Source of the DNA: an uncultured Roseobacter sp.
GTDB taxonomy: Bacteria > Pseudomonadota > Alphaproteobacteria > Rhodobacterales > Rhodobacteraceae
Assembly: GCA_913054455.1 (NCBI GenBank)
Contig: CAJXIL010000008.1
Coordinates: forward strand, 1 to 48,938
Direction of reading: 5' to 3'
Length of the DNA: 48,938 nt
Part shown: piece after piece, positions 24,346 through 46,783 of the stretch
Layout of the letters: each line of letters opens with the position of its first letter
How positions within the stretch are numbered: the first letter of the stretch is position 1
The notes under the pieces: generated by a model
Told to the model about the DNA's origin: nothing
Database searches by the model: none
The model's input: the letters and a program-made list of their open reading frames with translations, nothing else
Made by a program: the position numbers and the translations under genes

Positions 24346-25521
24346 TTATTTCATGGAAACCACATTGCCAGTCTGCTTGTCTGCGGTCGCAATGCTTGCC
24401 CACGCATTCATTAAGGCCCGCCGTTTATCGAACAGGTCAGACCGCGCATAGGCCGCTTCGGATTTGTCTTTGATCCCATGCGCCAGCGCCGCCTCGATAA
24501 CTTCGCGCGAAAAGCTGGTCGTTTCGCCTGCCCAATCGCGGAACGTGGACCTGAACCCGTGCACCGTGATGGTGTTGCACTCCATGCGGCGCAACAGGGC
24601 GGTCATACTCATATCTGATATTGGCTTACCTGCTTTCGTCTCACTCCCAAAGACCAAATCATTGTCCTTTCCTCGTGACCCAAGGTGTGCGATGGCCGCA
24701 GATGTCAGGGGGACGCGGTGTTCCTTTGCCGCTTTCATGCGCTGGGCAGGGATGGTCCAGACGCCATTGTCCAAATCCACTTCGGCCCAAGTCATGCCCC
24801 GCGTTTCGCCAGACCGCGCCGCCGTGAGGATGGTAAACGTCAAAGCCCGCGCCGAAACGCCTTTGCGGGTGGATAGCGCATCCATAAAGTTTGAGATATC
24901 TGCATGAGGCAGGGCGGGATGGTGTTGAACTGCGCGCACCTTGGTCGGCTTTGGCAATAGGTTGTCCAAGTGACCGCGCCACCGCGCAGGATTGTCCCCT
25001 TCACGAATGCCCAGCGCGGATGCATAATCCAAAACTGCTTCGATCCGTTGTCGGACGCGGTTGGCTGTTTCGGGTTTTTGCGACCAGATAGGCTTGAGTG
25101 CCGCAACGACGTCAGCCGTCGCGATTTTTGTAACTTGTATTGGGCCAAGCGTAGGGAAAACATAAGCCTCAAGCGTAGACCTCCATTGAGCCGCGTGTTT
25201 TGCGCTTTTCCATCCAGATCGCTTGCTTTCGATCAATTCAAGGGCGGCGTCTTTGAAAGTCTTCGGCTGGGCTTGGCGACGTTTGGCAATCGGGTCATCG
25301 CCCTCCAAGATCATACGCCTTGCGTCGGTTGCTTTTTGGCGCGCCATTGCCAAGGTCACATCAGGATAAGCCCCCAAGCCAAGATCATGGCGTCGCCCCT
25401 GCACCTGATATCTAAGCACCCATGACCGCGCCAATGTAGGTTTCACATATAAGAATAGGCCACGTCCGTCACCGTGTCGTCCTACACCTGCCGTTTCCAC
25501 CCTGCGCGCGCTCAGCTTCAT
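24346..25521 (-). CDS. P4-type tyrosine integrase 2
   Basis: A 391-aa integrase with the N-terminal arm-binding DUF4102 domain ('GLFLYVKPTLARSWVLRYQV', 'GLGAYPDVTLAMARQKA'), a core-binding domain and a catalytic domain with Arg in 'AARSGETRGMTW', 'VHGFRSTFRDWAGE' (HxxR), 'LAHGIKDKSEAAYARSD' (His and Tyr). These integrases insert islands into tRNA 3' ends. It lies 155 bp inside att site 2 with its promoter facing that site, and the GTTCCCACA doublet sits just upstream of its ATG. It appears intact. It is related to, but clearly distinct from, integrase 3. Confidence 0.93.
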   Translation of the reverse strand: MKLSARRVETAGVGRHGDGRGLFLYVKPTLARSWVLRYQVQGRRHDLGLGAYPDVTLAMARQKATDARRMILEGDDPIAKRRQAQPKTFKDAALELIESKRSGWKSAKHAAQWRSTLEAYVFPTLGPIQVTKIATADVVAALKPIWSQKPETANRVRQRIEAVLDYASALGIREGDNPARWRGHLDNLLPKPTKVRAVQHHPALPHADISNFMDALSTRKGVSARALTFTILTAARSGETRGMTWAEVDLDNGVWTIPAQRMKAAKEHRVPLTSAAIAHLGSRGKDNDLVFGSETKAGKPISDMSMTALLRRMECNTITVHGFRSTFRDWAGETTSFSREVIEAALAHGIKDKSEAAYARSDLFDKRRALMNAWASIATADKQTGNVVSMK

Positions 25522-27907: not shown

Positions 27908-30900
27908 TTAACCGCGTTGCTGGTCGTTCTGATCTCTTCTGGAAATCCTTTCAGCACACTTGACCTCCTCGAAGACCAGTTCAGGCACAACGACTTCCCA
28001 ATTAGCGCGTTTCATCAAATGATGAAAACGCTCATCGGCATTCTCTTTGCGCCAGTTTATGATGGCCGCGATCTCGCCAGAGACAAATTCCGTGCCAACT
28101 GGTGGCGCGAAAGCTTTTGACATCCGCCCAAGGACACGTCTTTGAGCATCCTCAATCTGCCAGCGATCCCCAACTTTAGAGAGCCTGACTGGCGCACCAA
28201 CCTGTGCTTCGGCGATCGCGGTATGAACAGCGTGCTGGTCACCCTGGCGTCCTGCGAACGACAGATCGACCATCTTCATCTCGGGCGATTGAAAGAACCG
28301 GCGTGGGCCGGGGATTGTCGCCAGGTCGGGCACAACATTCCGCGTGACCACGGAAGGCGAGACGGTGGGGAGGTATTCGTGATTGTCGTTACTCATAACG
28401 ATCAAGTTGCGCCGCGCACGCGTCATAGCGACATAGAACAATCGCCTTGGCGCATCCTGATCTTCGTTTTTCGAGGGTCGTTCCCAGCCACCGTCCATGA
28501 TCACGACATCGTCAAATTCGAGGCCCTTTGCGCGGTGCGCGGTCAACAGTTTGAGGCCGCGCTGCTCGCCCCATGAATCCTTCGACCATTCAGCAAACCA
28601 TTCGATCACGTCAGTGGGCGGGAGCGCTTTGCCGTCAACTTCGCGTGCGAGCTGGCCAAGTCCCTCGCCGATCCGGATGGTCCAACGGCTTGCGGGTATC
28701 GCGTTCAGGGTTTCGGTCAGGTCGCCCACGCTGACCATCGCTCCATGCCTCGCGCGCAGGTTGCCGATAAACCCCTGCATTTCGCGGGTGCGCCAAAAAC
28801 TTGGCAGGTTCTCGTTTGCCATTTCGACGGGAATCCCCAGGGCTTCGGCGAAGTCGCGGACCGGCAAAAGCTTGCGCCAATCACGAGAAATGATTGCCGC
28901 CCCCCTCCAACTCCAATCCGGGATCAATTTTGACAGGCGGATCATCTCGTTGACCGCCGCAAGGGCCTGAGCGTCATTTCCTGGCGGGCAGCCAAGGATC
29001 TGGACCCGCCCCTGAGCAACCGGATCGAGGCTTTCCATGATATCCCCGACCGGGTCCTTTTGCCGCAATTGGTCGACGGTAATTCCATGCCCTGTTTTCA
29101 TACGTTCCCGAGAACCTTCGATTACGGCGTTGGCTGCGTTGATAATGTTCTTCGACGAGCGGTAATTGTCTGTCAGAAAGACCGGTCTGGCTGAATAATC
29201 CTGTTCGAATTGCCGAATGTGACGCACCGATGCCCCAGCAAACGCATAGATATTCTGGTCGTCGTCGCCGACCGCGAACAAGCTGAGCCGTTGATCGGGG
29301 TCATCGATGCTGCGACCGGCCACCGCAGCGATCAAAGCGTATTCTTCGGGGCCGATGTCCTGATACTCGTCCACGAGAATCCAGCGGAACCCCTGGATCA
29401 ATGTCTCTCGCAAGGCTTCGGCCTCTACTTTTTCCAGCCCGTCGCCACGCAAGAGACTTGCCGCATCGGTCAGAAGCGTCTCGAAATCGGGCTCTTCGGC
29501 CTCTGCCCCTCCGGCGAAACTCGCGCCGATCAACCGCATGGCCAAGGCATGAATGGTCAAAACCGTTACGAAACGAGCATCTTCGCCGATTAGTCGACGC
29601 AAGCGTTCCCGGATCTCGGCGGCCGCGTGGCGATTGTAGGCGAGCACCAGTATACCGTTTGGATCTTGGCGCTTGATCCGGACCAGGTAGGCGACACGAT
29701 GGACCAGCACTCGTGTCTTACCCGATCCCGGCCCCGCGAGCACAAGCACATTGGTCTGTTCTCGGTCGTCACGCACGATCTGCTCTTGTGTCGAATTCCG
29801 CAGATTGTCGACGATCTCGGCATAGGACTGGGGCGTTGCCTGCCGTTTGAACTCCGAAATTTTCCCCGGCATCCAAGCTTTCATGAAGTCGGACTGCTCC
29901 ATTGCAAAATAGTCATGCGCGAGCTGCTGGGCCTGATCAATTTCGTCGATGCCTTTGGTGGCATAAGCCGCCATCACGTGGGTCTGGACGGTTTGTTCGC
30001 TGTAGTGGTCTTCGAGCGGTGCGAAATGCTGGGTGGTAAAGCCGCCACCTTTCGGGTTGATGTGCAATGTCATGGCTGAACGGAACACAGACAATCCCTT
30101 GCCCAGAGACACCACCTGCTGTTCGTGTAGCCATAGAAGCGCTCGGTCCATAAGCTTTGCGGGATCGTTGACAGATGTCCGCAACAGCGCATCGCTGTTG
30201 ATCGCTGCAAGAAGGTCGCCAAGTGTGGTCTCGACAGGAACATCTTTCCCACGAAGGCCGGACTGAATCTTGTTGATCAAGTGTGAAACCAACCGCTCTG
30301 CCGCCTGCCTGCGAAGTTGAGCGGTCTGATCGATTACTGCCCATGATCTTTGCATTCGCACCATGAGACTGCCTTGGGACACCTTGCGCAGGCCAATATT
30401 GCCTTTGCCGCCATCCATGTCGCGGCCATCCTGCGCAATTCCACGGAGCAACCCCTCGACGATATCGGGCCGCACGGAGGCGTGTCCTTGCTCCCGGAGA
30501 GCCTGTGCCACCGAGGCCAGATGGCAGGGCCAAGCCTCGTCGATATCCGCGTCTGGCGCTTGCTCTCTTAGGGTCGCGATCAGATCTGCTTCTAACCGGG
30601 ACGCCGCTTCGAACCGTTTCGGCGAGGCATTCTCAACGCGCAGATGCACGAAGATGGTGATGTTTGTATCATCTTTTGCGATCCCCAGGGTCTCGAGATC
30701 CGCCAAGGCCTTGCGCACGCCCGACACCGTCAACCCACTGACCCCGCAAAGCTCGTCCGTGGTAATGCCCTCCTCTTGCGGCGCGTTGATGATATGCTGC
30801 ACGATGGCTGCCAGATCTTCGCGCCGCCGCTGGGTGATCTCGGCAGAGGCAAGGATCTCGCGGGCCTCTTGGATGCTCCTTATCCGGAGCGAGGCTGGAA

Positions 30901-33166
30901 AGACCTGCACCCGGTTTTCTTCACGGTTCAGAAGGTGCGCCTCTTCCAGCCAGGCGACGGCCGTCTTTACCCTTGTATCGTCGGTATTGCTGTCTCGCTG
31001 GAAATCCCGGTCTTTCTCCTCGTGAACAATTTCGCCCGGTGTAACAACAATCTCACCGCCTTTTCTGGTCCGAGTATCAAGGCGCCGCAGCGCCTTCATG
31101 ATCGCGCCGATTTCATGCCGCGCGAGTCGAGACCGCGCGCTCAGGCTGAACTGACGATCGACATCTTCTGTGTTATAAAGAAGGACGCAGCTTGCAGGAT
31201 CACGGTCCCGCCCGGCGCGACCTGCCTCTTGCAGATAGTTCTCCAGTGACCCGGGCACATCACCGTGAACCACCAGACGGATGTCCGGCTTGTCTACCCC
31301 CATACCAAAGGCGTTGGTAGCCGCGATCACGCGCAGATTGCCGATACGGAAGTCCTCCTGGATCTCGCGCTTGTCATCGGCGCTAAGGCCCGCATGATAC
31401 CGTTCAGCAGCTATGCCCTGTTGTTTTAAGAACTCCGCCACGCGCTCTGTGGCGTTTCGGGTTGCACAATAGACGACCGCCCCCGACACGCCCTCGCGCG
31501 GAAGCTGAGCCTCGATCGTATCGAGGATATCGGTCATCTTGGTTGCCCGCTGCGTTGGCCGAACTTGGAAGCTCAAGTTCGACCGAGATGCGCCTCCGTC
31601 GATCAAAGCCAGCTCGGTCCCCAACCGCTCTCTAAAATGACTTCGGATGTCCTGCACGACATCCGGCTTTGCTGTCGCGGTCAAGCAAAGCACTGGAGCC
31701 GGTTCGTCGCCTGAGCTTTCCTTTATAAACCGCGAAACGTATCGATAGTCGGGACGGAAATCTTGCCCCCATTTGGACACGCAGTGCGCCTCGTCCAGCA
31801 CCCACAGTCCTACTTCGCGCTGTGCTAAAACGGACCGAATTGTTGTGCTACGCAGTTGTTCTGGTGAAATTAGCAGGATCGCAGCATCCCCAAGCCGCAC
31901 CTTGTCGAGCGCATCCTGACGCTCGGGCAAGGACAAAAGCCCGTTGATCGTAACCGCCGACGAAATTCCGGCTCGCACCAAGCCCTGAACCTGGTCCGCC
32001 ATCAGCGCCACGAGCGGCGATATCACAACAGTCAATGCCCCGGTCTTGTCGAACCGAGACAGCGCTGGGATTTGATAGCAAATAGACTTGCCCGTGCCTG
32101 TCGGCAGGATGCCTAATAGGTTTTCGCCGTCCATGGCCGTCGCCACGATCTTTTCCTGAAGTGGGCGACCGTCCTCGTCGACCGGTTCCGGGCGGAAACC
32201 TGGAAAGCCGAACCAACGTTCGAGTGCACGGGTGGGATTGTTGTGCTCTGCGCAATAGCCACAGTGCGGATCACGGCAATTCGAGTCCCTCAGGTCTTTG
32301 ACGAGCCGTGCGGCGTCACGGAACTGTGCTCGGACCCAAGGCGGCATGACAGAATCCCCACCCGCGACCGAAATCCAGGCAAGAGCATAAGCCATCGGCC
32401 AGCCCAGCCCAGTGTCATGGAGCCGCTCGAGGACTGCCTCCACTTGGGCACGGCAGGCAGCCTCTTTCAACAGCGTCCGAAGAACCCCGTGCGCTTCAGC
32501 TTCGGTCGGGATAGACGCCCCACGCACATGGCTGAACAACCGATCAAATCCGTCGCTACTGGGCCCTCGGCAACATAGCCAGTGATAGGCCAGAATTGTC
32601 TCTGGCGATGATTTGTTCAGCGACACAAAAGCGTCGATCTGGTTGCAAAGGACCTTGAACACAAGACGCGCGTCGAACTCGGGATCGTTAACGTGACCAC
32701 TTTGAAGCCGCCCATCGTGGTAGTGTTTGACCAGACGGTGATAAGGATTGCGCGGAAAAGCCAAAGGGTTGAGCCACAGGGTGTCGATCGGTCTGTCTGC
32801 GAGCTTTGCGAAGCGCGGCGACACCGCCATGAGATGCGGCAAGTCGTGGTGCAGAATATTGTGCCCAATGACATGGGAGAAGCCTGCACAGAACTGGTCG
32901 AGTCTTTCAAGCGCGGCCCTCGGGTGACCTTTCCGATGAACAATCCCCTCTCCTTCACCGTCCGGCACGGCGGCAAAGGCGAAGATTTGGGCTTCTTTAG
33001 GATCGACCTCCAGATCAATCGACAGGCAGCGTGACAAGATTTCGGAATAGTCCCGCGGCATTTGAATACCGATATTACCCGCTGAGTCGGCTTCTGATTT
33101 TTCAGATTGCTGTGGCCGGGTGCGGGAAAAGGCTTTCGCTATGCCTCGGGTAATTATGTTTTTCAT
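27908..33166 (-). CDS. Giant DEDD-like exonuclease - RecQ helicase - UvrD helicase fusion
   Basis: A 1752-aa protein. Residues ~45-180: RNase H-like 3'-5' exonuclease pattern, 'SIDLEVD' (D51, E53), 'VIGHNILHHDLPHL' (D108), 'NDPEFDA' (D165). Residues 297-308: 'NCRDPHCGYCAEH', a possible zinc site. Residues ~335-680: RecQ SF2 helicase with PTGTGKS (355-361), DEAH (458-461), 'LCLTATAK' and 'YLQEAGRAGRDRDP'. Residues ~800-1100: winged-helix/HRDC-like linker. Residues ~1138-1600: UvrD-type SF1 helicase with GPGSGKT (1145-1151), 'ILVDEYQDIGPEEY', 'VGDDDQNIYAFAGAS', 'TAHRAKGLEFDDV' and 'FYVAMTRARRNL'. It should unwind and degrade DNA. Its ATG overlaps the stop of the 117-aa ORF. Exonuclease assignment is less sure than both helicases. 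Confidence 0.92.
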   Translation of the reverse strand: MKNIITRGIAKAFSRTRPQQSEKSEADSAGNIGIQMPRDYSEILSRCLSIDLEVDPKEAQIFAFAAVPDGEGEGIVHRKGHPRAALERLDQFCAGFSHVIGHNILHHDLPHLMAVSPRFAKLADRPIDTLWLNPLAFPRNPYHRLVKHYHDGRLQSGHVNDPEFDARLVFKVLCNQIDAFVSLNKSSPETILAYHWLCCRGPSSDGFDRLFSHVRGASIPTEAEAHGVLRTLLKEAACRAQVEAVLERLHDTGLGWPMAYALAWISVAGGDSVMPPWVRAQFRDAARLVKDLRDSNCRDPHCGYCAEHNNPTRALERWFGFPGFRPEPVDEDGRPLQEKIVATAMDGENLLGILPTGTGKSICYQIPALSRFDKTGALTVVISPLVALMADQVQGLVRAGISSAVTINGLLSLPERQDALDKVRLGDAAILLISPEQLRSTTIRSVLAQREVGLWVLDEAHCVSKWGQDFRPDYRYVSRFIKESSGDEPAPVLCLTATAKPDVVQDIRSHFRERLGTELALIDGGASRSNLSFQVRPTQRATKMTDILDTIEAQLPREGVSGAVVYCATRNATERVAEFLKQQGIAAERYHAGLSADDKREIQEDFRIGNLRVIAATNAFGMGVDKPDIRLVVHGDVPGSLENYLQEAGRAGRDRDPASCVLLYNTEDVDRQFSLSARSRLARHEIGAIMKALRRLDTRTRKGGEIVVTPGEIVHEEKDRDFQRDSNTDDTRVKTAVAWLEEAHLLNREENRVQVFPASLRIRSIQEAREILASAEITQRRREDLAAIVQHIINAPQEEGITTDELCGVSGLTVSGVRKALADLETLGIAKDDTNITIFVHLRVENASPKRFEAASRLEADLIATLREQAPDADIDEAWPCHLASVAQALREQGHASVRPDIVEGLLRGIAQDGRDMDGGKGNIGLRKVSQGSLMVRMQRSWAVIDQTAQLRRQAAERLVSHLINKIQSGLRGKDVPVETTLGDLLAAINSDALLRTSVNDPAKLMDRALLWLHEQQVVSLGKGLSVFRSAMTLHINPKGGGFTTQHFAPLEDHYSEQTVQTHVMAAYATKGIDEIDQAQQLAHDYFAMEQSDFMKAWMPGKISEFKRQATPQSYAEIVDNLRNSTQEQIVRDDREQTNVLVLAGPGSGKTRVLVHRVAYLVRIKRQDPNGILVLAYNRHAAAEIRERLRRLIGEDARFVTVLTIHALAMRLIGASFAGGAEAEEPDFETLLTDAASLLRGDGLEKVEAEALRETLIQGFRWILVDEYQDIGPEEYALIAAVAGRSIDDPDQRLSLFAVGDDDQNIYAFAGASVRHIRQFEQDYSARPVFLTDNYRSSKNIINAANAVIEGSRERMKTGHGITVDQLRQKDPVGDIMESLDPVAQGRVQILGCPPGNDAQALAAVNEMIRLSKLIPDWSWRGAAIISRDWRKLLPVRDFAEALGIPVEMANENLPSFWRTREMQGFIGNLRARHGAMVSVGDLTETLNAIPASRWTIRIGEGLGQLAREVDGKALPPTDVIEWFAEWSKDSWGEQRGLKLLTAHRAKGLEFDDVVIMDGGWERPSKNEDQDAPRRLFYVAMTRARRNLIVMSNDNHEYLPTVSPSVVTRNVVPDLATIPGPRRFFQSPEMKMVDLSFAGRQGDQHAVHTAIAEAQVGAPVRLSKVGDRWQIEDAQRRVLGRMSKAFAPPVGTEFVSGEIAAIINWRKENADERFHHLMKRANWEVVVPELVFEEVKCAERISRRDQNDQQRG

Positions 33167-35731: not shown

Positions 35732-36089
35732 TCTGGTGCCTCGATGATGAGTTATCAGTCTAAGCTTTCTTGCACAGGTATTTCAGTTGAAACAAAACAT
35801 TCAAGGTTGTGCGACCTTTCGTCAATCACGCTTGCACTCTTGGTCGCCTCATAACATCCTATACGAGAAAATAACCCAAGACACATATGAGAGGTAGCAA
35901 CATCAACAGCTTGGAAAGCTTCCTTTGTTCCAAGGCAGGACTTGAGGGCAAGTTGCCGTTGATTGACACCAATGGTGGTGCGGCTATTGGCGTGAGCCGA
36001 AGCAGTGTTGAGAGCCCTAGATTCAGAAGTCGCCGGACTACCGAAAGAGAGATTCGAGTGTTTCCCTTTCTCAGTCGACCGCTTTCTTA
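35732..36089. other. Intergenic stretch before the abiF RNA promoter
   Basis: No supportable gene. A 114-aa + strand ORF (35887-36231) is Arg/Ser-rich, lacks a ribosome site and runs through the structured RNA, so I treat it as chance. Confidence 0.5.
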
Positions 36090-36118
36090 TTGCTTTGGTA
36101 GGAAACGCATCCTATATC
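36090..36118 (+). promoter_or_regulatory. Sigma-70-type promoter for the abiF RNA
   Basis: TTGCTT (36090-36095) and TATATC (36113-36118) with an ideal 17-bp spacer. Expected transcription start about 36124-36126, immediately at the foot of the RNA stem. Confidence 0.6.
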
Positions 36119-36121
36119 TTA

Positions 36122-36195
36122 ACGTAACAAGACCCGCCACGCCTCGGACGAAACCTCGGTTTCGCACTGCGCACCCAGGCGGGTTACTTGTTTTA
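36122..36195 (+). ncRNA. Structured RNA upstream of abiF (abiF-RNA-like)
   Basis: AACAAG (36126-36131) pairs with CTTGTT (36187-36192) and ACCCGCC (36132-36138) with GGCGGGT (36178-36184), a 13-bp stem with a 2-nt bulge. Inside it, CGAAAC-CTCG-GTTTCG (36149-36164) forms a second perfect hairpin. The RNA starts at its own promoter and ends in TTTT, so it may be released as a ~70-nt RNA. From established knowledge, AbiF/AbiD genes are often preceded by a conserved 'abiF' ncRNA. Whether this one fits that consensus needs a covariance search. Confidence 0.65.
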
Positions 36196-36227
36196 GGGGG
36201 GTGGACTTCGCTGCGGGGTGTCGTTGC

Positions 36228-37130
36228 ATGAAGTTCAACAAACCATCCACTTGTATCCTGGATCAAATTGCCTTGCTAAGGGGCCGCGGCATGGTCGTTG
36301 CCGATGAACCGCGCGCCCGGCACTATTTGCAATTCATCTCCTATTACCGGCTACGTGCTTACTGGCTGCCATTCGAGGTGCCTACTGGGGCTGGTGCACA
36401 CGCCTTCCGCCCTGGCACTGACTTCGAGGATGTGCTCACGCTCTACATCTTCGACAGAGAGCTTCGTTTATTGGTCCTAGATGCCTGCGAAAGAATTGAG
36501 GTCGCTTTACGCGCTCAATGGGCGCACTACATGGCCATGACCTATGGCCCCCATGGCTACCTCGATCAAAGCCACTATACGAACATCGGCAGACACGCGA
36601 AAGCAGTGGCCGATTTGACGAAAGAGTTCCAGCGTTCGAAAGACACTTTTGCCGCCCACTATCGCAACAAGTATACTAGCCCTGAATTACCACCAGTGTG
36701 GATGGCCGCAGAAGTCATGTCATTTGGCCTTCTCTCAAAATTCTACAGCGATTTAAACCAGCGCGCCCAGCGGCAAGCCATCGCTAGACCCTTCGGATTG
36801 GACGAAAAAGTGCTCACTTCGTTCGCCCACCACATGAGCCATGTGCGAAATATCTGCGCTCATCACGGTAGATTATGGAATAAGCGTTTCACGGTGAAAA
36901 TGGCCGCACCGAAATACCCAGCTAAGCTTCCCATTGCCATGCGCGACGCCGATGCACGTTACCTTCACAACACCTTAGTCACGCTGGACTACATGTTATC
37001 AATCATCGCGCCCGACAATGAATGGCGGAAACGCGTCGTCGCTATAATTGATAGTTGCCCTCTGGCCGCTCCTGCCAACATGGGCTTCCCTCCAGACTGG
37101 CGCACCCGTCCGGCGTGGAGACTAGTGTGA
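36228..37130 (+). CDS. abiF: Abi family protein (AbiD/AbiF, Abi_2), HEPN-type
   Basis: A 300-aa abortive-infection protein from ATG 36228 (GGGGTG ~8 nt upstream; the frame extends back to a GTG at 36201). Family signatures: N-terminal 'DQIALLRGRGMVVADEPRA', 'YLQFISYYRLRAYWLPFE', 'YIFDRELRLLVLDACERIEV' and the C-terminal HEPN motif 'HVRNICAHHGRLWNKRF', with RNICAH at 207-212 as the RX4H ribonuclease-type site. The structured RNA lies 33 bp upstream on the same strand. Abi_2 proteins stop phage growth by killing or arresting the infected cell; the RNA may act as its antidote, guide or cofactor. Confidence 0.9.
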   Translation: MKFNKPSTCILDQIALLRGRGMVVADEPRARHYLQFISYYRLRAYWLPFEVPTGAGAHAFRPGTDFEDVLTLYIFDRELRLLVLDACERIEVALRAQWAHYMAMTYGPHGYLDQSHYTNIGRHAKAVADLTKEFQRSKDTFAAHYRNKYTSPELPPVWMAAEVMSFGLLSKFYSDLNQRAQRQAIARPFGLDEKVLTSFAHHMSHVRNICAHHGRLWNKRFTVKMAAPKYPAKLPIAMRDADARYLHNTLVTLDYMLSIIAPDNEWRKRVVAIIDSCPLAAPANMGFPPDWRTRPAWRLV

Positions 37131-37343
37131 TGAACGACCTTTCGCTTCAGAGCGACCCCTCCAGGATGGATAGAATGCGACCTCAATAAACCCTACGTGG
37201 AGTGAAAGCTAAGTTCAGCGGCAACGGCAATTCTTCCTTGCGCGAATAACGCGAGGCTCTGCTTGACACTTCGGTAAACGGCCTAACAGACTTGGCTGTT
37301 TGCGGCCAAAGACGAGACCATCAAAACGAAGAGGAGACACTAA

Positions 37344-37988
37344 GTGGGTGAGATAACCGAAAGAGAGGTTGAGTGGGCTACAGTGCGTCGTATGCAACAG
37401 ATGCTGCACACACCTCACCGAGCCTTCGAAGAGACGCACACCTATTCGCTCTTCAACAGCATCCTGTGCTGGACCCTTCAGCGTATCCGCTCGGTTCCAA
37501 CGCACCCAAACGAACCTCCCAATCGAGCTCAACGGCAAGAGAACGCACGTGCTGAGGACCCACTGTTTGATGCGGTCGACGGGCTGCAAGACCACCTACA
37601 GCAAACTACGGTCGAGCGCGTTTTTCCCGGCATGGTAGCAGGTGAACAAATTGAAGAGCCGCAAATCAACACTTTGCCGAACCGCGATGCTGAAGGTAAC
37701 GAAATTTCATGCTTGGCGTTCCTCATTGCTTTGAGGAATGCCACAGCACATGGAGATGGGCGAAAAGTAAAACCCATCAACCAAAACAATCGCTTAGTAG
37801 GATTCGAATTACCCCTAATAAATCCGAAGCATTTTCCAGATTGGACAGCAGTTGTGCGACTTGATCGCGCAGGGATGTGCCAAATCTCCGATACACTTGT
37901 CACCAATTTTTGTAACGCGCTGATCAATCCCGAAGACCATGAGGCCATCGAACACGCCAACGGGTTGGTGGAAACTGTTCGTCAGTGA
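37344..37988 (+). CDS. HEPN-like protein, unknown family
   Basis: A 214-aa protein from GTG 37344 with GAGGAG 7 nt upstream. It is mostly helical. 'SCLAFLIALRNATAHGDGRK' contains RNATAH (131-136), an RX4H motif with the Arg-Asn and following His typical of HEPN ribonucleases (compare pEK499_p136-like and Mrr-linked HEPN proteins). Downstream are 'VGFELPLINPKHFPDWT' and a helical tail. It sits 213 bp after abiF and 68 bp before the DUF262 gene, same strand. Likely an RNase toxin or sensor of the defence cluster; the exact family is not recognised. Confidence 0.72.
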   Translation: MGEITEREVEWATVRRMQQMLHTPHRAFEETHTYSLFNSILCWTLQRIRSVPTHPNEPPNRAQRQENARAEDPLFDAVDGLQDHLQQTTVERVFPGMVAGEQIEEPQINTLPNRDAEGNEISCLAFLIALRNATAHGDGRKVKPINQNNRLVGFELPLINPKHFPDWTAVVRLDRAGMCQISDTLVTNFCNALINPEDHEAIEHANGLVETVRQ

Positions 37989-38056
37989 TCAAAATAGACC
38001 GACATTTCCAGTTGAAGACAGATTTAGACACATTTTCACCCTGAAGGGATAATCAT

Positions 38057-40291
38057 TTGAGAGACGCACAAAAACCCAACCAATTTACCCTCAACAACCT
38101 ACTATCACGGCTCCAGGAAGGACGTTTTGTAGTCCCAGACTTTCAGCGTGAGTTTGAATGGAAACCCTGGGATATTCGCGATCTGATGAGATCGATTTTC
38201 CTCGACTACTACGTAGGAAGCTTGTTGCTCTGGAAGGGCAAAGAAGAAAACTTCTCAGCGCTCGCCTGTGAACCAATTTACGGTCACGCAGGTGGAGGCT
38301 CAGCTGAACACATTGTTCTCGACGGCCAACAACGCTTGACCGCTTTATACTACGCATGTGTTGCCCCAAATGTTGCCTTGCCAAACAGAAGTAATCGCGC
38401 GATCTATTTCATCAACGTCGATCGGTTCATGCGAGAGGAATACGACGACGCTTTCAACTATGACTGGAAGTCAAAACGTATCGAGAAGTTGGAACAAGAT
38501 CCTGCGCTTCAATACCAAGAGCACATCTTCCCTTTGTCTATCGTAGGGGCTGGTGGATGGGAGATGCCGACCTGGGTTCAGGGCTATAGTCAATTTTGGC
38601 TCAACAAACTGGCAGAAGCAACGGCACTGGACGACCGAGATGAAGTCGAAAGATGTGAACTCTGCGTCCAGAATGCTGAAAAATTTGGAAAATTTCTGAA
38701 AGAACTCACCGAGCAATATCAAATTTCATACATCGAACTCGACAAAGATCTGGGACTGGACAAGATCTGTGACATTTTCACCCAGATCAACAGCAAAGGG
38801 ATCCGGCTTGATGTGTTCGATCTGCTCAACGCGCTGCTAAAGCCGCGTGACCTTCAGCTCAAGTTCATGTGGCGCAAGGCAAAGGGGCGATTGGAGTTTG
38901 TCGACAGCCCAAAACTCAACGTCTACATCTTGCAAGTAATGTCCATTCTCAAGCAAGCTTACTGCTCTCCAAAGTATTTATATTACCTCATGCCAGGCCA
39001 CGAGAAGACTATCAGGACACAAGGTGGCAAAATAGACAAAGAGATCCTGCTCAGCAGCACCGAGGATTTTGTCGACCTCTGGAACACATCGGTCGATGCT
39101 ATGGAGAGGGCTATTGAAATGCTCCGTCATCCCCATGAGTTCGGGGTCACTTCTTCCAAATACCTACCTTATGTTTCGATCCTTCCTGCATTTTCCGCCT
39201 TACAAGAACATGTCAGACATCTCCCCGCGGATCAGAGACTTGAGGGGCAACGCAAGGTTAGGTTCTGGTATTGGGCTTCAATCTTCACGAACCGCTACTC
39301 TGGGTCCGTTGAATCCACAGCCGCACGTGATTTTCAAGACGTGCGGCTGTGGATTCAAAAGCCAGATGCTGAACCACCTCTCATCCAAGAGTTCAAATCG
39401 AAGTTCAAAAATCTAGAACTGCGTCGTGAGGTAAAGTTTGGCTCATCAACCTACAATGGCTTGTTCAATTTGCTCATTATGAATGGCGCGCGAGACTGGG
39501 TCACCGGAAACATTCCGGCAAACGGAGCGTTGGATGATCACCATATTGTTCCCGCTTCTTGGGGAGAGGAGAACCTTCAGGATAGGTCAGTTCACTCCAT
39601 CCTGAACCGAACACCACTTCTCGATGAAACAAACCGTCACGTCATTGGGAAAAAGTTACCAAACGAGTATTTACCTGAACTCATCGCAAAGAGTGGCGAG
39701 AACCATGTGCGGGCGATCTTGGAAAGCCACCTCATATCCCCCGCTTCATTTGACATTCTCATGAGAGATAATTTCTCCTTGGAGGACTTCGAAGAGTTCA
39801 TAAAGGAGCGGCAAAGAACATTCATCGAAGCTATTGAGTCGCTATTAATCAAAGAAAGGCTGGCGCTTTCGCCTCATCTGCGGACTCTGGATGGGCAGAT
39901 CGAAGTAGTCGAGCTCGGGATACGTGCATTGCTTGCCAGCACTTTGCGAGGGCAGGAAGACCCCATTCCCCGGCATGTCATGGATAAGATGCAGCATCGC
40001 TTAGCAAGTGCACAGAAGAAGAACCCAGGGTTTGACCAAGAGCACTATGGCACATTGGAAGGCAAGTTAGAGTTTTCTGATCTTCAGGAGTTAAAAGATA
40101 TCGTTCTTGCTAAATCGAACTGGCCGCATTTTTCTTCAACCTTCCCCTCTAAAGAAGACGTTGGAAAGCGGTTCGATCAGCTTGCAAACATGCGCAATAG
40201 CATTAGGCACAGCAGGTCTGTAGACGAAATCTCCCAAAAAGACGGTGAGGCTGCCCTGCTATGGTTTGAAAAAGTGAAGTCAATCGTCTGA
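38057..40291 (+). CDS. DUF262 - HNH - HEPN-like defence protein (GmrSD-related)
   Basis: A 744-aa protein starting at TTG 38057 (GAAGGGA upstream). Residues 1-~300: DUF262/ParB-like domain, 'VPDFQREFEWKPWDIRDLM' (27-45) and 'VLDGQQRLTALYYA' (87-100), which in GmrS uses NTP hydrolysis to steer cutting of modified DNA. Residues ~485-540: HNH/DUF1524-like nuclease, 'ALDDHHIVPASWGEENL'. Residues ~620-744: helical domain ending in 'LANMRNSIRHSRSVDE' with RNSIRH (713-718), a HEPN (Swt1-like) RX4H motif. This resembles Type IV restriction enzymes but with an added RNase-type end. The gene is close to the HEPN gene upstream and the Type ISP enzyme downstream. Confidence 0.85.
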   Translation: MRDAQKPNQFTLNNLLSRLQEGRFVVPDFQREFEWKPWDIRDLMRSIFLDYYVGSLLLWKGKEENFSALACEPIYGHAGGGSAEHIVLDGQQRLTALYYACVAPNVALPNRSNRAIYFINVDRFMREEYDDAFNYDWKSKRIEKLEQDPALQYQEHIFPLSIVGAGGWEMPTWVQGYSQFWLNKLAEATALDDRDEVERCELCVQNAEKFGKFLKELTEQYQISYIELDKDLGLDKICDIFTQINSKGIRLDVFDLLNALLKPRDLQLKFMWRKAKGRLEFVDSPKLNVYILQVMSILKQAYCSPKYLYYLMPGHEKTIRTQGGKIDKEILLSSTEDFVDLWNTSVDAMERAIEMLRHPHEFGVTSSKYLPYVSILPAFSALQEHVRHLPADQRLEGQRKVRFWYWASIFTNRYSGSVESTAARDFQDVRLWIQKPDAEPPLIQEFKSKFKNLELRREVKFGSSTYNGLFNLLIMNGARDWVTGNIPANGALDDHHIVPASWGEENLQDRSVHSILNRTPLLDETNRHVIGKKLPNEYLPELIAKSGENHVRAILESHLISPASFDILMRDNFSLEDFEEFIKERQRTFIEAIESLLIKERLALSPHLRTLDGQIEVVELGIRALLASTLRGQEDPIPRHVMDKMQHRLASAQKKNPGFDQEHYGTLEGKLEFSDLQELKDIVLAKSNWPHFSSTFPSKEDVGKRFDQLANMRNSIRHSRSVDEISQKDGEAALLWFEKVKSIV

Positions 40292-40472
40292 TCAAACCCA
40301 TGAAGACCGCCTCCCGGTAATTCGTCTGTTTCAACTTTAGAACGTCACAAAATTTTGGGGAGGGAGTTTCAAACTCAAAGGACACCTTTGTCTCTGATAT
40401 TGATCTGCAGGTTGCTTCAACCTATCCGATACTCTAGCGATGGAAGATAATTCTTCCATAGGGTTTCATATT

Positions 40473-43400
40473 ATGACCGCACTTGACGACCTCCTTGAAT
40501 CCTATCGTTCTGCAGCCTTAACAGAGCGCGAGAAAGGCACATATTTTGAACGTTTAGCCACGACTTACCTTGTTCATGACCCAGTCCAGAGGGAAGAATA
40601 TGATGAGGTTTGGACATGGTTCGATTGGGCCAAGGAACACGGAGAAAGCGGCAAGGACATTGGGATCGATTTAGTCGCCAAGTTACGGAACGAAGACGGC
40701 TACGCAGCGATTCAATGCAAGTTCTACGCCGCCAAGCATCGAATCCAAAAGGCTGACATTGACAGCTTTATATCCGCTTCGGGCAAAGCTCCATTCGTGC
40801 GCCGCATTGTCATGGATACGACCGAAGGGGAGTGGGGTAGCAACGCTGAAGCGATCATTGCTGGCCAAACCATTCCCGTTGTGCGGATCTCGCTCGGTCA
40901 CCTGCGAGAGAGCCTGATCGACTGGACAATCTTTGGTATCCGTGGCGAGGCCCAACTTTCTGAAAAGAAAAAACTCCGGCCACACCAAAATGAAGCCCTG
41001 GAAGCCGTCCGAACGGGCCTGTCAGAAGCGAGCCGTGGAAAGCTCATCATGGCTTGTGGAACCGGTAAAACATTCACTTCGCTGAAGATTGCAGAAAGTC
41101 TCGCTGGAAAGGGAGGGCGCGTTCTGTTCATGGTCCCATCATTGTCGCTCATGTCTCAGACAGTAAGGGAATGGACGAACGATACGGAGACTCCCTTGAG
41201 GTCCTTCGCGGTATGCTCGGACACGCAGGTCGGCAAACGGCGCGTGTCGAACGACGATGCGGCAGAAATTGAAGCCCATGATTTAGCGTTTCCCGCGACC
41301 ACCAATCCGGCACGTCTGGTTGAAAAAGCTGCCGAGAATGATCCTGACCGTATGACCGTAGTCTTTTCGACCTACCAGTCGATCAGCGTTCTAGGCGACG
41401 CTCAGAAAGCTGGCCTTCCGGACTTTGACCTGATCATCTGTGACGAAGCACACCGCACTACTGGAGCGACGCTTGCTGGGAGTGAAGAGTCAAATTTTGT
41501 CCGCATCCACGATGATGCCCACGTAGTCGGCAGAAAGCGCCTCTACATGACCGCAACACCGCGAATTTTTGGAGATGCTGTTAAAACCCGCGCGGACGAA
41601 GAAGCTGCGGTTCTGGCGTCAATGGACGACGAAAACCTTTACGGAAAGACGCTTCTGCACAAGGGGTTTGGATGGGCAGTTCAGAACGGCTTGTTGACAG
41701 ACTATAAGGTCATAGTTCTTGCGATGGACGAAGGCCTGGTCAGCGCCAACGTCCAGAGACGCTTGTCTGATGAAAACTCCGAACTCGACCTCGACGACGC
41801 CACGAAAATTATTGGCTGCTACAAAGCCCTGACAAAGCAGGATCTGAAACAGGACCTATCCTTCGATTCACAGCCCATGAAGCGTGGGCTAGCTTTCTGT
41901 AAGACTATCGCGGCATCAAAGCTCATCCGCAACGAATTCGACAATGTCATCGCAGAATACACTGGTGAAGATGCCCTGATTGAAGACGATGCATCGCCTT
42001 CTCCTGGCCGTCTAAACATCGAGATTAAGCACGTCGATGGAACCTACAATGCCAAGTCCCGCAATCAACTTTTGGATTGGCTTAAAGCCGACACCGAGGA
42101 CAACAAGGCACGCATCCTGACCAACGCCCGCTGCATGTCCGAAGGTGTAGATGTCCCCTCCCTTGATGCGATCATGTTCCTGCATCCACGCAAATCGCTA
42201 ATCGATGTGGTGCAATCCGTAGGCCGGGTGATGCGAACATCCAAAGAAACCGGAAAGAAGATGGGCTATGTCATCCTCCCCGTGGGCGTCCCAGCCGGGG
42301 TGGAGCCAGAAGTGGCATTGAAGGATAACGACCGTTATCGCGTTGTATGGCAGATCCTGAATGCCCTTCGCGCCCATGATGAGCGCTTTGACAGCACCAT
42401 CAACCAAGCTTCCCTTGGCCAGAACGTCTCTGACCGGATCGAGATTGTCGGCGTCACGCAGGAATCCGAGGAGTTGCGATCCATTACGCACGAAGTGACT
42501 GAGTTGCCCTCCCACCGGGCGCAGCCTGCCAGTGCCATCGGACAAGGTGGCGACAGCGATACGGTGACCACCGGCCCCGCGCCAACGCAGGGCGAGTTGT
42601 TCATCGATGAATTTTCCCACGCGATCATGGCCAAAATCGTCAAGAAATGCGGCACCCGCGATTATTGGGAGGACTGGGCAACCAATATCGCCGAGATCGC
42701 ACAGCGCCACATTTCGCGCATCACGGGCATTCTAGCGGAACCGGAAACCCAGGCGCGCAAAGCCTTTGATGGCTTCCTAGCTGAACTGCGCGATGACTTG
42801 AACGATAGCATATCTGAACAAGACGCCGTTGAGATGCTGGCCCAGCACCTCATCACCAAGCCAGTCTTCGAAGCCTTATTCGAAGACCATCAGTTCACTG
42901 ACCAAAACCCCGTCTCTCGCGCTATGCAGCAGGTGCTTGCAGTGCTCGATGAGAATAGGATCGACAAGGAAGCCAAGGATCTCGAAAAGTTCTACGAAAG
43001 CGTTCGCAACCGCGCGCACGGTATCACTGACCCCCAGGCCAAACAGCGCCTAATTGTCGAACTTTATGACAAATTCTTTCGCAACGCCTTCCGCCGCACG
43101 ACCGAGAAGCTGGGGATCGTCTACACCCCGGTCGAGATCGTCGACTTCATTCTGCACTCGGTCAACGAGATGTTGCAGGAGCATTTCGGCCAAACGCTCG
43201 GCTCGCGTGGCGTCCATATCATGGACCCCTTCACCGGCACGGGCACCTTCATCACGCGGCTGCTGCAATCCGGCCTGATCGCGCCGGAGGAGCTGGAGCA
43301 CAAGTATCGCCACGAGATCCACGCAAACGAGATCGTGCTGCTGGCCTACTACATCGCCGCGATCAACATCGAGGCGGTCTACCAGGGCGAGGCCAAGAAG

Positions 43401-45350
43401 AACGAGTATGTGCCCTTCGAGGGGATCTGCCTCACCGACACCTTCCAGATGTATGAGGGCGATGACGAGCTGGCGCTCTACATGCCCGACAACTCCGAAC
43501 GCCGGACTCGGCAGAAGGAGCTGGATATCCGGGTGATCGTGGGCAATCCGCCGTATTCGGCAGGTCAGCGAAGCGAGAACGATAACGCAGCTAACATCGA
43601 TTACGGGCTTCTGGATTCGCGCATCAGAGATACATACGTGAAAGCCTCAGATGCAAAACTCCAACGTGCGATTTACGATAGCTATATCCGTGCGATCCGG
43701 TGGGCGTCCGACCGCATAGGAAACTCTGGCGTGATTGCATTCGTCACAAACGCAGGCTGGGTGGATGGTAATGCCGCTGACGGCCTTCGTGCTTGCTTAG
43801 TCGAAGAATTTACCGATCTTTACATCTTCCACCTCAGGGGCAATCAACGCACAAGCGGTGAACAATCAAAGAAAGAGGGCGGTAAGGTGTTTGGTTCTGG
43901 GAGTCGGGCTCCCATTGCAATTAGCATCTTCGTAAAGAATCCAAACGCGGCAGAACATGGCCGAATCTTCTTCCACGATATTGGCGACTACCTTGACCAA
44001 AAGCAGAAACTTGCAATCGTCCGGAATTTCGGCTCGGTCGCCGGGGTTAGCGAGGAGGATGGTTGGGCGAGGATTACACCCGATGACCAGAACGACTGGT
44101 TGAACCAGCGCGATCGGAGCTTTGATAAATTCATCAATATTGGCGAGAAGAAATCAACCAGAGGTGAAAACCTTTTTGGCAGCTACTCTCAAGGCATCAT
44201 GACAAACCGGGACGCCTGGTGCTTCAACTTTTCGAAGGAAGCATTGGTCAATAATATTAAGAGATTCATCGAATTCTATAATCAACAAGTGGAAGCAAGA
44301 ACCCAAAGCACTGAAGAGATAGGGCTGGATCGTGATCCGAAAAAGATCAGCTGGTCTCGCGCTCTTTTGGCGCGGGCCCAAAAAGCCCAATTGATCGATC
44401 TTGAAGAAAAAGCCCTTAGAATCGCGTTGTATCGGCCCTTCTCCAAGCAATGGCTTTATTTTGACAAGTCTGTGAACGAGACGCCCGCGCTAATGGACAG
44501 AATATACCCCGACAAAGATCGCGGGAACATCTCGATATGCACGACCGGTGTCGGAGAGAACCAGCCATTTTCCGTCATAATGACTGACAGGCCTACTGAA
44601 TACAAAACCCACTACAACGGAAAGAACTTTCCCCTCTACTGGTATGAAACATCAGGAAACCCTGGCGGCCTCTTCGAAGGCCAGTCCTCCGGCCTCCAGC
44701 GCCGGGACGCGATCACCGATGCCGGGCTGGCGCATTTCCAGTCGGCCTATCCGGGCGAGGAGATCACCAAGGAGGACATCTTCTACTACGTCTACGGCCT
44801 GCTGCATTCGCCCGACTACCGCGACCGCTACGCCGACAACCTGACCAAGGAACTGCCGCGCATCCCGGGGGTGAAGACCTACGCCGACTTCCGTGCCTTT
44901 TCCGACGCCGGACGGCGCCTTGGCGATCTGCATGTGAACTACGAGACGGTGGAGCCATACCCCGTCACCTACAAGCAGGGCACGCCCGAGCTGTGGACCA
45001 TCGGCGACCCCAAGGCCTTCTACCGCGTCACCAAGATGAAGTTCGGCGGCAAGGCCCGCGACAAGGACAAGACCACGGTGATCTACAACGCCAACATCAC
45101 CATGACGGACATCCCGCTGGAGGCCTACGACTACGTTGTCAACGGCAAGCCCGCGCTGGAATGGGTGATGGAGCGCCAGGTGGTCAAGACCGACAAGGCC
45201 AGTGGCATCGTCAACGACGCCAACGACTACGCCAACGAGGCGATGGGTAACCCGACCTATCCGCTGGAGTTATTCCAGCGAGTCATCACAGTGAGCCTGG
45301 AGACATTGAAGATCGTCCGCAACCTACCGAAGCTTGACTTACCAGAGTGA
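40473..45350 (+). CDS. Type ISP-like restriction-modification enzyme (single polypeptide)
   Basis: About 1625 aa from ATG 40473 (MTALDDLLESYRSAALTERE); an ATG at 40440 is the alternative. Order: Mrr-like nuclease (~60-85, 'GKDIGIDLVAKLRNEDG' then 'AAIQCKFY'), SF2 helicase ('ACGTGKTFTSLKIAE' ~193, 'ICDEAHRTTGA' ~323, 'MTATPRIFG', 'VQSVGRVMRTSKETGKKMG'), a helical coupler, N6-adenine methyltransferase ('HIMDPFTGTGTFITRLL' ~916, 'VIVGNPPYSAGQ' ~1024) and a C-terminal target-recognition region. This is the LlaGI/LlaBIII architecture: one protein recognises, methylates, translocates and cuts DNA. GC is high in 43090-43560 and 44650-45260 but low between, so the recognition region seems exchanged. 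Confidence 0.92.
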   Translation: MTALDDLLESYRSAALTEREKGTYFERLATTYLVHDPVQREEYDEVWTWFDWAKEHGESGKDIGIDLVAKLRNEDGYAAIQCKFYAAKHRIQKADIDSFISASGKAPFVRRIVMDTTEGEWGSNAEAIIAGQTIPVVRISLGHLRESLIDWTIFGIRGEAQLSEKKKLRPHQNEALEAVRTGLSEASRGKLIMACGTGKTFTSLKIAESLAGKGGRVLFMVPSLSLMSQTVREWTNDTETPLRSFAVCSDTQVGKRRVSNDDAAEIEAHDLAFPATTNPARLVEKAAENDPDRMTVVFSTYQSISVLGDAQKAGLPDFDLIICDEAHRTTGATLAGSEESNFVRIHDDAHVVGRKRLYMTATPRIFGDAVKTRADEEAAVLASMDDENLYGKTLLHKGFGWAVQNGLLTDYKVIVLAMDEGLVSANVQRRLSDENSELDLDDATKIIGCYKALTKQDLKQDLSFDSQPMKRGLAFCKTIAASKLIRNEFDNVIAEYTGEDALIEDDASPSPGRLNIEIKHVDGTYNAKSRNQLLDWLKADTEDNKARILTNARCMSEGVDVPSLDAIMFLHPRKSLIDVVQSVGRVMRTSKETGKKMGYVILPVGVPAGVEPEVALKDNDRYRVVWQILNALRAHDERFDSTINQASLGQNVSDRIEIVGVTQESEELRSITHEVTELPSHRAQPASAIGQGGDSDTVTTGPAPTQGELFIDEFSHAIMAKIVKKCGTRDYWEDWATNIAEIAQRHISRITGILAEPETQARKAFDGFLAELRDDLNDSISEQDAVEMLAQHLITKPVFEALFEDHQFTDQNPVSRAMQQVLAVLDENRIDKEAKDLEKFYESVRNRAHGITDPQAKQRLIVELYDKFFRNAFRRTTEKLGIVYTPVEIVDFILHSVNEMLQEHFGQTLGSRGVHIMDPFTGTGTFITRLLQSGLIAPEELEHKYRHEIHANEIVLLAYYIAAINIEAVYQGEAKKNEYVPFEGICLTDTFQMYEGDDELALYMPDNSERRTRQKELDIRVIVGNPPYSAGQRSENDNAANIDYGLLDSRIRDTYVKASDAKLQRAIYDSYIRAIRWASDRIGNSGVIAFVTNAGWVDGNAADGLRACLVEEFTDLYIFHLRGNQRTSGEQSKKEGGKVFGSGSRAPIAISIFVKNPNAAEHGRIFFHDIGDYLDQKQKLAIVRNFGSVAGVSEEDGWARITPDDQNDWLNQRDRSFDKFINIGEKKSTRGENLFGSYSQGIMTNRDAWCFNFSKEALVNNIKRFIEFYNQQVEARTQSTEEIGLDRDPKKISWSRALLARAQKAQLIDLEEKALRIALYRPFSKQWLYFDKSVNETPALMDRIYPDKDRGNISICTTGVGENQPFSVIMTDRPTEYKTHYNGKNFPLYWYETSGNPGGLFEGQSSGLQRRDAITDAGLAHFQSAYPGEEITKEDIFYYVYGLLHSPDYRDRYADNLTKELPRIPGVKTYADFRAFSDAGRRLGDLHVNYETVEPYPVTYKQGTPELWTIGDPKAFYRVTKMKFGGKARDKDKTTVIYNANITMTDIPLEAYDYVVNGKPALEWVMERQVVKTDKASGIVNDANDYANEAMGNPTYPLELFQRVITVSLETLKIVRNLPKLDLPE

Positions 45351-45517: not shown

Positions 45518-46783
45518 TCACCGACGTAACCGAGAGTCGACCTCAACAAAAGTAGCCCAATCTTCCATCATCATTCGTCGCTTCTCAATCATATCGCTGC
45601 GCAGGTAAGCCCGCTCAACGTCGCTGCCTACCTTGTGGGCCAATGCCATTTCCGCCATATCGCGTGGGTAGTTGGTGCGCTCGGCCGTCCAGTCACGGAA
45701 GCTTGAGCGTAGCCCGTGTGGCACCGCTGGGCGCCGTGAGCGAGGGTCTAAGAAACCGCGGCGACCCTCCTTTTCCTCAGCAGCCTGGACGCGCCGCATC
45801 ACCGCCGAGATCGTCATGTCAGACATCTGGCCATTCTTGGGTGACGGGAAGACGTAGGGACACTCAATCAGACGTGGCAGTTTTGTGACCAATTCGACTG
45901 CAGCAGAGCATAGTGGCACTCGATGCTCGCGCCCGGCCTTCATTCTGTGCGCAGGTATGATCCAGATACCATTCGCTAGGTTCATTTCGTCCCAGAGCGC
46001 GCCACGCACCTCTCCCGATCGTGACGCAGTAAGAGTAAGGAACTCCAGAGCACGGGCTGCCATGCCGTCTCTGTGGCGCAATATGCGGAACCAATCGGCA
46101 ATCTCGTCTAAGTCAACGGCAGGATACCGGTTCTCCTTCTGCACCTTGTTGGGCGACGGAAGGAGCTTTGCCAAATTACCCTTCCAGAGAGCCGGGTTTT
46201 CCCCTTCGCGCAGGCTCATCACCTTGGACCAGTCCAAAACGGCCTCAATGCGCTGTCTTACTCGCGAGGCGGTCTCGTTCTTTGTCATCCAAATGGGGCG
46301 AATGACAGCCAAAACATCCTCAACTGTGATTGACGCGACAGCCTTATCTCCGATCACAGGGAAAGCGTAGGTGGTGAGAGACGAACGCCACTGCTTGATG
46401 TGCTTGATGTTCTTGAGCTCACCCTGCACCTTCGTCTCATAGAAGCTGTTGAAAGCTTCCTCGAAGGTGGTGCAATGCTTTTGCTCCAAAGCGAGCGCTG
46501 CTCTCGCTGCTTGCCGTTCTGCAACTGGGTCATTGCCATCTCTGATCTCTCGTTTCAAATTTAGAGCCTTCTCACGAGCTTCTGCGAGAGAAACTTCCGG
46601 ATATGATCCAAGACCTATATGTCGACGGCTGGCTCCAATAGTGACCCGAAATATCCATGACTTGGCTCCGGTCTTTGTGATATTCAAGCTTAGACCTGGT
46701 GGGGTCCCACCGACGGCGTGGCGGCCAACTTGGGTCAGTCTCTTTACCTGAAGTGCCTTGAGTTCTTTAGCTTGCTTGGGCAC
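45518..46783 (-). CDS. P4-type tyrosine integrase 3
   Basis: A 421-aa integrase: DUF4102 arm-binding domain ('GLGSYPEVSLAEAREKAL'), core-binding domain and catalytic domain with Arg in 'ASRSGEVRGALWDE', 'VPHGLRSSFRDWTAERTNYP' (HxxR), 'LAHKVGSDVERAYLRSDM' (His, Tyr). It shares the plan of integrase 2 but is plainly divergent. It lies 155 bp inside att site 3 with its start facing that site, the same layout as integrase 2 at att site 2. It probably moved island B. The CTTACCACCA doublet is immediately upstream of its start. Confidence 0.93.
   Translation of the reverse strand: MPKQAKELKALQVKRLTQVGRHAVGGTPPGLSLNITKTGAKSWIFRVTIGASRRHIGLGSYPEVSLAEAREKALNLKREIRDGNDPVAERQAARAALALEQKHCTTFEEAFNSFYETKVQGELKNIKHIKQWRSSLTTYAFPVIGDKAVASITVEDVLAVIRPIWMTKNETASRVRQRIEAVLDWSKVMSLREGENPALWKGNLAKLLPSPNKVQKENRYPAVDLDEIADWFRILRHRDGMAARALEFLTLTASRSGEVRGALWDEMNLANGIWIIPAHRMKAGREHRVPLCSAAVELVTKLPRLIECPYVFPSPKNGQMSDMTISAVMRRVQAAEEKEGRRGFLDPRSRRPAVPHGLRSSFRDWTAERTNYPRDMAEMALAHKVGSDVERAYLRSDMIEKRRMMMEDWATFVEVDSRLRR

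Follow-up and report, generated by a model that had tools for sequence, protein, structure and literature searches.

Do three consecutive genes that each carry a HEPN-type RNxxxH motif form one composite defense system, or are they several systems lying side by side? The question is raised by a cluster on contig CAJXIL010000008.1 of an uncultured Roseobacter sp., which we analyzed over a stretch of 48,938 nucleotides (nt; hereafter, the window). The three genes encode AbiF, a protein of 214 amino acids (aa) and a 744-aa DUF262-HNH protein with a HEPN-like C-terminus; a structured RNA precedes them and a Type ISP restriction-modification (R-M) enzyme follows. We use 'HEPN214' as our own label for the 214-aa protein and its relatives. 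On balance, we favor a defense island made of independent, R-M-linked HEPN effector modules, not one machine. What recurs elsewhere is each HEPN module occurring singly inside type I R-M operons, with the HEPN214 family also present in DISARM.

The four genes lie head to tail on the plus strand, in the order AbiF, HEPN214, 744-aa gene and Type ISP enzyme:

36133..36184 (+): abiF RNA (RF03085-like), ending 43 nt ahead of the AbiF start codon
36228..37130 (+): AbiF, an Abi_2/AbiD HEPN protein of 300 aa, with RNICAH at 36846-36863
37344..37988 (+): HEPN214, 214 aa, GTG start, with RNATAH at 37734-37751
38057..40291 (+): 744-aa protein, TTG start, with DUF262 (residues 13-261), HNH (DHH at 494) and HEPN-like regions
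39851..40288 (+): C-terminal HEPN-like domain of the 744-aa protein, with RNSIRH at 40193-40210
40440..45350 (+): Type ISP restriction-modification enzyme, 1636 aa, a neighbor, not a partner

Three successive RNxxxH genes beside a structured RNA and a Type ISP enzyme are thus all present, as the preliminary description had it. The exact motif occurs once in each of the three proteins, and these are the only carriers among the 29 largely non-overlapping open reading frames (ORFs) of at least 150 aa kept by our script. Shuffles of the same composition (n = 5000) contain it by chance at rates of 3.3% for AbiF, 4.9% for the 214-aa protein and 5.1% for the 744-aa protein.

Whether pairing of the 214-aa and 744-aa genes is conserved had been named beforehand as the question that would decide between one composite system and several. 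No such pairing was seen. None of 11 HEPN214 loci holds a relative of the 744-aa protein (one of the 11 holds AbiF), and none of four loci of 744-aa relatives holds HEPN214, the upstream side alone being visible in one of these, L032. Neighborhoods of other Type ISP genes (19-20 kb each; seven fetched of 11 others) were equally devoid of any of the three HEPN genes (0/7). These counts were made without an ORF overlap filter, over locus stretches of 7 to 20 kb and in small samples. Because the 214-aa and 744-aa genes are not paired in the other loci seen, the composite reading is unsupported, and we reject it. Type I operons house relatives of each of the three HEPN genes, yet in the window these genes lie outside such an operon.

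We found 11 distinct relatives of HEPN214. One came from a set of 72,556 plasmid records, five from other genomes in an order-level sample of 390, and one was kept from 398 genomes at the phylum level, where a second match was dropped. Alignment scans also gave three loci in genome contigs; two matches came from viral contigs, one of them apparently the same as a genome match. Two loci, L019 and L031, on contigs both of 81255 and with the same gene order, were counted as one relative. Single-sequence scans of genome contigs and viral contigs gave no match, alignment scans succeeding in part, and a phage search found none. Three further matches were set aside: G918 (E 5.3e-4), whose gene we take to be HslV; G053 (E 8e-4), with two stops inside; and G587 (E 2.5e-4, one stop inside), fetched as L030, in which no kept ORF matched.

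Six of the 11 relatives lie between hsdS and hsdR in type I operons, one lies in a type I remnant, three follow drmMI in DISARM, and one is an orphan that lacks the motif. The gene orders are as follows:

L003 and L008: HsdM, (AbiF, L008 only), HsdS, Mrr_cat gene, HEPN214, 181-aa gene, HsdR
L006: HsdM, HsdS, 115-aa gene, HNH_2 gene, HEPN214, HsdR
L017 and L018: HsdM, HsdS, HEPN214, HsdR (HsdR of L018 found by tblastn)
L016: HsdS (split in two ORFs), HEPN214, HsdR
L007: Mrr split in two ORFs, HEPN214, 28-aa HsdM stub
L020 and L036: DrmD, DrmMI, HEPN214, HTH/peptidase gene, DrmA, DrmB (DISARM; L036 with an extra 171-aa gene)
L019/L031: DrmMI, HEPN214 and a 42-aa DrmA fragment
L021, 9161-9748: orphan HEPN214 relative without RNxxxH, no R-M genes found adjoining

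In all seven type I or remnant loci the HEPN214 start codon overlaps the preceding stop codon by 1, 4 or 8 nt, and in the three DISARM loci the distance to the preceding gene is 12-15 nt, as against 213 nt in the window. In a tree of the family, the three DISARM copies group together (100/99), and the window copy stands next to that of L006 (81/94, not a starred branch). The gap between hsdS and hsdR has been described as a potential hotspot for defense genes (PMC12255303), and intervening rlo and mlo genes are reported in type I operons (PMC5183652). The rlo genes between hsdS and hsdR (PMC5183652) and DarTG2 in the E. coli RRDM island (PMC12255303) occupy the same gap with unrelated cargo; unlike these, the cargo in the window lies outside any detected hsd operon.

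In the DISARM loci L020 (10559-11698) and L036 (10048-11163), the gene that follows HEPN214 encodes an HTH plus Peptidase_M78 protein (by Pfam in L020, to which that of L036 is 66% identical). It matches the PADLOC RmrA and capP/capH models and is perhaps a regulator of HEPN214.

Is HEPN214 itself a HEPN protein? Its motif, its predicted topology and weak profile matches make this plausible. The motif, in the form R[ND]xxAH, is found in the window copy and in 10 of the 11 relatives, as RN in the window and six relatives and as RD in four (L016, L019, L020, L036), and is lost in L021. It thereby agrees with the Rx4-6H pattern of the HEPN superfamily, which has a polar residue behind the R. Its R, A and H are among the best-kept positions of the family, and a D following the R is a known variant of the HEPN motif (PMC3710099). 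The predicted structure (mean pLDDT 81.7, pTM 0.81, six input sequences; other four models 69.6-74.7) comprises helices at residues 7-22 and 30-48, a variable insert, a helix at 123-134, strands within 143-173 and a helix at 175-193, and would place the motif (131-136) where the third core helix ends. In the HEPN fold as described in PMC3710099, helix 3 ends in the motif, the stretch inserted between helices 2 and 3 is poorly conserved, and Csx1 has a beta-hairpin directly behind the motif.

Profile searches gave fainter signals. The PADLOC model RTasHEPN matches five of the 11 family members at E values up to 1 (best 2.1e-4; none for the window copy), and the L017 protein has weak Pfam matches below cut-off to HEPN_RiboL-PSP (E 0.11) and HEPN_MAE_28990 (E 0.24). 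A HEPN214 profile compared with solved structures gave no match at E<=10, and profile-profile comparison with the C-terminus of the 744-aa protein reached a probability of 5.5 with the motif helix alone aligned. The GTG start of the window copy is backed by the family alignment. The earlier view of the 214-aa protein as a HEPN protein is plausible in view of the kept motif and its predicted position; no match to a curated profile or a known fold could be added to these. An RNase role for HEPN214 appears to us somewhat more probable than not.

How would such a protein act? We put forward, tentatively and with less than even confidence, that HEPN214 would be an unnamed plug-in RNase effector, taken up separately by type I R-M and DISARM systems at fixed operon positions as a second line that goes into action once DNA defense has failed. 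In the window, it would have left such an operon and come to lie beside the DUF262-HNH-HEPN protein and the Type ISP enzyme. In the island reading that we favor, HEPN214 would usually serve as the embedded effector of a modification-based defense operon, between hsdS and hsdR in type I systems or after drmMI in DISARM. By analogy with PrrC, it would stay silent while the DNA-defense complex is intact; once this complex is blocked or overwhelmed, HEPN214 would cleave RNA and halt growth. A role as backup RNases, restrained by the R-M system and set free on its neutralization, was proposed for R-M-linked HEPN proteins in 2013 (PMC3710099). PrrC, guarded by the type Ic R-M system PrrI (PMC3710099), resembles HEPN214 in that a HEPN-type effector gene is embedded in a type I operon (six of 11 HEPN214 relatives). 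HEPN214 differs from PrrC in being small and single-domain, without an ABC ATPase in Pfam scans, and in being found in DISARM too; its silencing is put forward by analogy. The window copy differs further in that it is not embedded in a type I operon and no hsd genes lie near.

Several observations weigh against the favored reading, with HEPN214 as an embedded effector in an island of independent modules. HEPN214 relatives are few and fall in few clades; the motif is RD in four of them and lost in L021. No curated HEPN profile is matched at cut-off, and a Foldseek search of the model against PDB and BFVD gave no match at E<=1e-3. Many HEPN families have a conserved acid in helix 2, whereas none is seen in helix 2 of HEPN214, where the conserved E10 sits in the first helix. 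Finally, the genome to which the window belongs (86% complete) gave no HsdM_N match, as opposed to nine of 14 control genomes, nor any match with the HsdM and HsdR of L006 as queries, in searches run without a positive control. As no hsd genes were found there, the partner to be guarded appears to be missing from this genome, within the limits of its 86% completeness.

Some of these points would suit a different view of HEPN214, as a protein that is not an RNase but serves type I and DISARM complexes as a structural or regulatory subunit, and whose HEPN-like motif has another meaning. The tight operon position in two unrelated systems, the missing curated and fold matches, the RD motifs and the loss in L021 agree with it. 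We nevertheless consider it improbable, since the R, A and H of the motif are so well kept, RD is a variant already known among HEPN proteins (PMC3710099), the predicted order of elements is as described for HEPN, and RTasHEPN matches five of 11 members.

The 744-aa protein would bring together, in one chain, a DUF262 NTPase acting as DNA sensor, an HNH DNase and a HEPN domain of its own. Its N-terminus matches GmrSD_N (Pfam, E 1.5e-30), a DUF262 domain with DGQQR at 89; the HNH region, whose DHH at 494 is kept in L027, is matched by neither HNH nor GmrSD_C in Pfam, even at E 10. At the C-terminus, the PADLOC model PDC-M34B matches residues 615-724 (E 3.9e-10) and RNxxxH is present in all four aligned rows, window included. 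This domain is likely to be of HEPN character: it matches, at E 7.5e-7, a domain of L029 that passes the Pfam cut-off of HEPN_Swt1, and related domains of L004 and L005 match HEPN families below cut-off. The window domain has no Pfam HEPN match of its own, and its single-sequence model is poor (pLDDT 45.5). PDC-M34B, a PADLOC candidate, and the Swt1/RiboL-PSP HEPN families are related to it.

This architecture was already known, because a DUF262-HNH-HEPN fusion is listed in Table 1 of PMC3710099 (2013), as 'ParB (DUF262) with HNH(DUF2081) (VNG7073)', an active Swt1-like HEPN fusion. VNG7073 shares with the window protein DUF262, a C-terminal HEPN-like domain with RNxxxH and an HNH region, which in the window protein is putative. 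A Halobacterium plasmid gene that aligns with the window protein is probably VNG7073, its record carrying another locus tag. What sets the window protein apart is that its closest relatives sit in type I R-M operons. The best of these, in L027, is 57% identical over the full length and occupies the hsdS-hsdR gap; on the viral contig L032, HsdM is followed by a 64% relative cut off by the contig end. Both overlap hsdS or hsdM by 4 nt. Of 40 plasmid relatives listed out of 65 records, 33 end at or before residue 605; among the plasmid matches listed, those reaching the C-terminus are one from Persicobacter and six from Halobacterium, the same seven that a query with the C-terminus alone retrieves. 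The Persicobacter and Halobacterium stretches fetched have no hsd genes in their annotation. In the order sample (n = 390 genomes), five genomes, own included, match the C-terminus, and one other has a full-length protein. A single-sequence scan of viral contigs with the 744-aa protein found nothing.

In DUF262-DUF1524 proteins, among them GmrSD and BrxU, NTPase activity is coupled to the cutting of modified DNA (PMC10952713). On this basis, the 744-aa protein may be a DNA sensor that responds by cleaving DNA as well as RNA. The preliminary description had suggested such a link between DNA recognition and RNA cleavage; it fits the 744-aa protein taken alone and is unsupported for the 214-aa/744-aa pair.

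Other proteins carry relatives of this C-terminal domain. L062, L063 and L064 encode stand-alone PDC-M34B-like proteins of 193-199 aa, each right behind a gene of 207-232 aa conserved across the three loci; in contrast to the window protein, these stand alone beside a partner gene, with which they likely form a two-gene defense pair. The neighboring genes are presumably DUF5343. Proteins of about 400 aa in L028 (6791-7990) and L029 (6543-7778) carry at their C-terminus a Swt1-like HEPN domain akin to the one in the 744-aa protein.

Could the 214-aa and 744-aa genes nonetheless form a two-gene system in this host, with the DUF262-HNH protein as DNA sensor and RNA cleavage as the contribution of the 214-aa protein? 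The genes lie on the same strand with a 68-bp gap and ribosome-binding-like sequences before both, their families share the hsdS-hsdR slot in relatives, and a DNase gene (Mrr_cat or HNH_2) precedes HEPN214 in four of 11 relatives, that of L007 being in two ORFs. Against such a system stand the absence of co-occurrence in the 11 and four loci, the HEPN-like domain that the 744-aa protein has of its own, and the presence of HEPN214 without a second insert in L016, L017 and L018. A promoter-like site in the 68-bp gap also speaks against it, though such sites are equally many in shuffles. Taken together, a two-gene system seems unlikely, a little more so than a structural role for HEPN214.

The HEPN character of AbiF, the first of the three proteins, is clear (Abi_2, E 1.3e-59 in Pfam; AbiD, E 8.2e-71 in PADLOC), and with its RNA it would be an RNA-protein toxin-antitoxin of an already known kind. 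The structured RNA noticed beside it corresponds to abiF RNA: RF03085 matches at 36133-36184 with 31.1 bits (E 0.01), under the gathering score of 37 and hence absent from a gathering-level search, and the predicted folding of 36125-36195 surpasses that of all 200 shuffles (z -3.94). A near-identical RNA (32.2 bits, likewise below gathering) with equal 43-nt spacing to the AbiF start codon is found in L008 (Roseovarius lutimaris), where AbiF and its RNA sit between hsdM and hsdS. The L008 protein (5705-6604) is also the nearest AbiF relative found, with 77% identity and RNICAH kept; by homology, the AbiF start was corrected to ATG 36228 from GTG 36201. Upstream of the RNA, 22 nt at 36083-36104 are identical between window and L008 and are perhaps a piece of promoter.

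The AbiF/abiF RNA toxin-antitoxin described in PMC12373285 likewise combines an Abi_2 protein bearing RNxxxH with a conserved abiF RNA just upstream. An AbiF whose RNA has two abiF motifs is reported there to be a toxin neutralized through direct RNA-protein contact, and its R and H motif variants lose toxicity. The window differs from the two-motif abiF RNA of C. difficile (PMC12373285) in having one match, below the Rfam gathering score. By the same scheme, the abiF RNA would keep the AbiF HEPN RNase inactive and infection would free it.

The enzyme that ends the cluster is indeed a single-chain R-M enzyme, of Type ISP by both Pfam (Type_ISP_C, ISP_coupler, Mrr_cat_2, ResIII and N6_Mtase) and PADLOC (PDLC03597, 2224 bits), with nuclease, helicase, coupler, methylase and specificity domains all in one chain. 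Of 248 genomes of the family, 12 have its gene, the window's own among them. Since no hsd genes were found, the three HEPN genes beside it would act alone or lean on another R-M system, and each would most likely be its own second-line effector.

A tblastn search of the window with the ORF proteins of 12 fetched loci (E<=1e-4) revealed no hsd or DISARM remnant; it returned known genes, an integrase and matches at 4.5-6 kb, the gaps giving short chance-level matches alone. An origin of the three genes from a type I R-M operon formerly at this place, whose hsdM, hsdS and hsdR have been lost, is suggested by their relatives in type I operons and by the decay of this kind displayed by L007 with its 28-aa HsdM stub, but the absence of any hsd remnant in this search and the intactness of all three genes, each with its motif, make it the least probable explanation and quite a doubtful one.

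Beyond the cluster lie further genes:

45518..46783 (-): phage-type integrase (Phage_integrase, Phage_int_M, Arm-DNA-bind_3), a possible island border

A second integrase-like gene lies ahead of the cluster at 24346-25521 (-), with a score under its NCBIfam cut-off. Between this gene and the cluster, 27908-33166 (-) encodes a 1752-aa protein joining a RecQ/DpdF-like DEAD helicase and a UvrD-like helicase. The integrase genes flank the helicase gene and the HEPN cluster, and the region may be an integrated island.

While the AbiF and 744-aa parts are of known kinds, what is new, as far as our searches reach, is HEPN214 as a family and its occurrence in type I as well as DISARM operons. HEPN214 has no Pfam match at cut-off, no NCBIfam name in any of the five members scanned and, for the window copy, no PADLOC match; searches of open-license literature on HEPN with DISARM, DISARM accessory genes, or DUF262 with HEPN and HNH showed no description of it among the papers listed. 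As a small family of one gene that keeps to one set position in type I operons and to a second in DISARM, HEPN214 allows the guard hypothesis to be put to the test. If DISARM has a HEPN partner built in, this would also be relevant to its handling of resistant phages.

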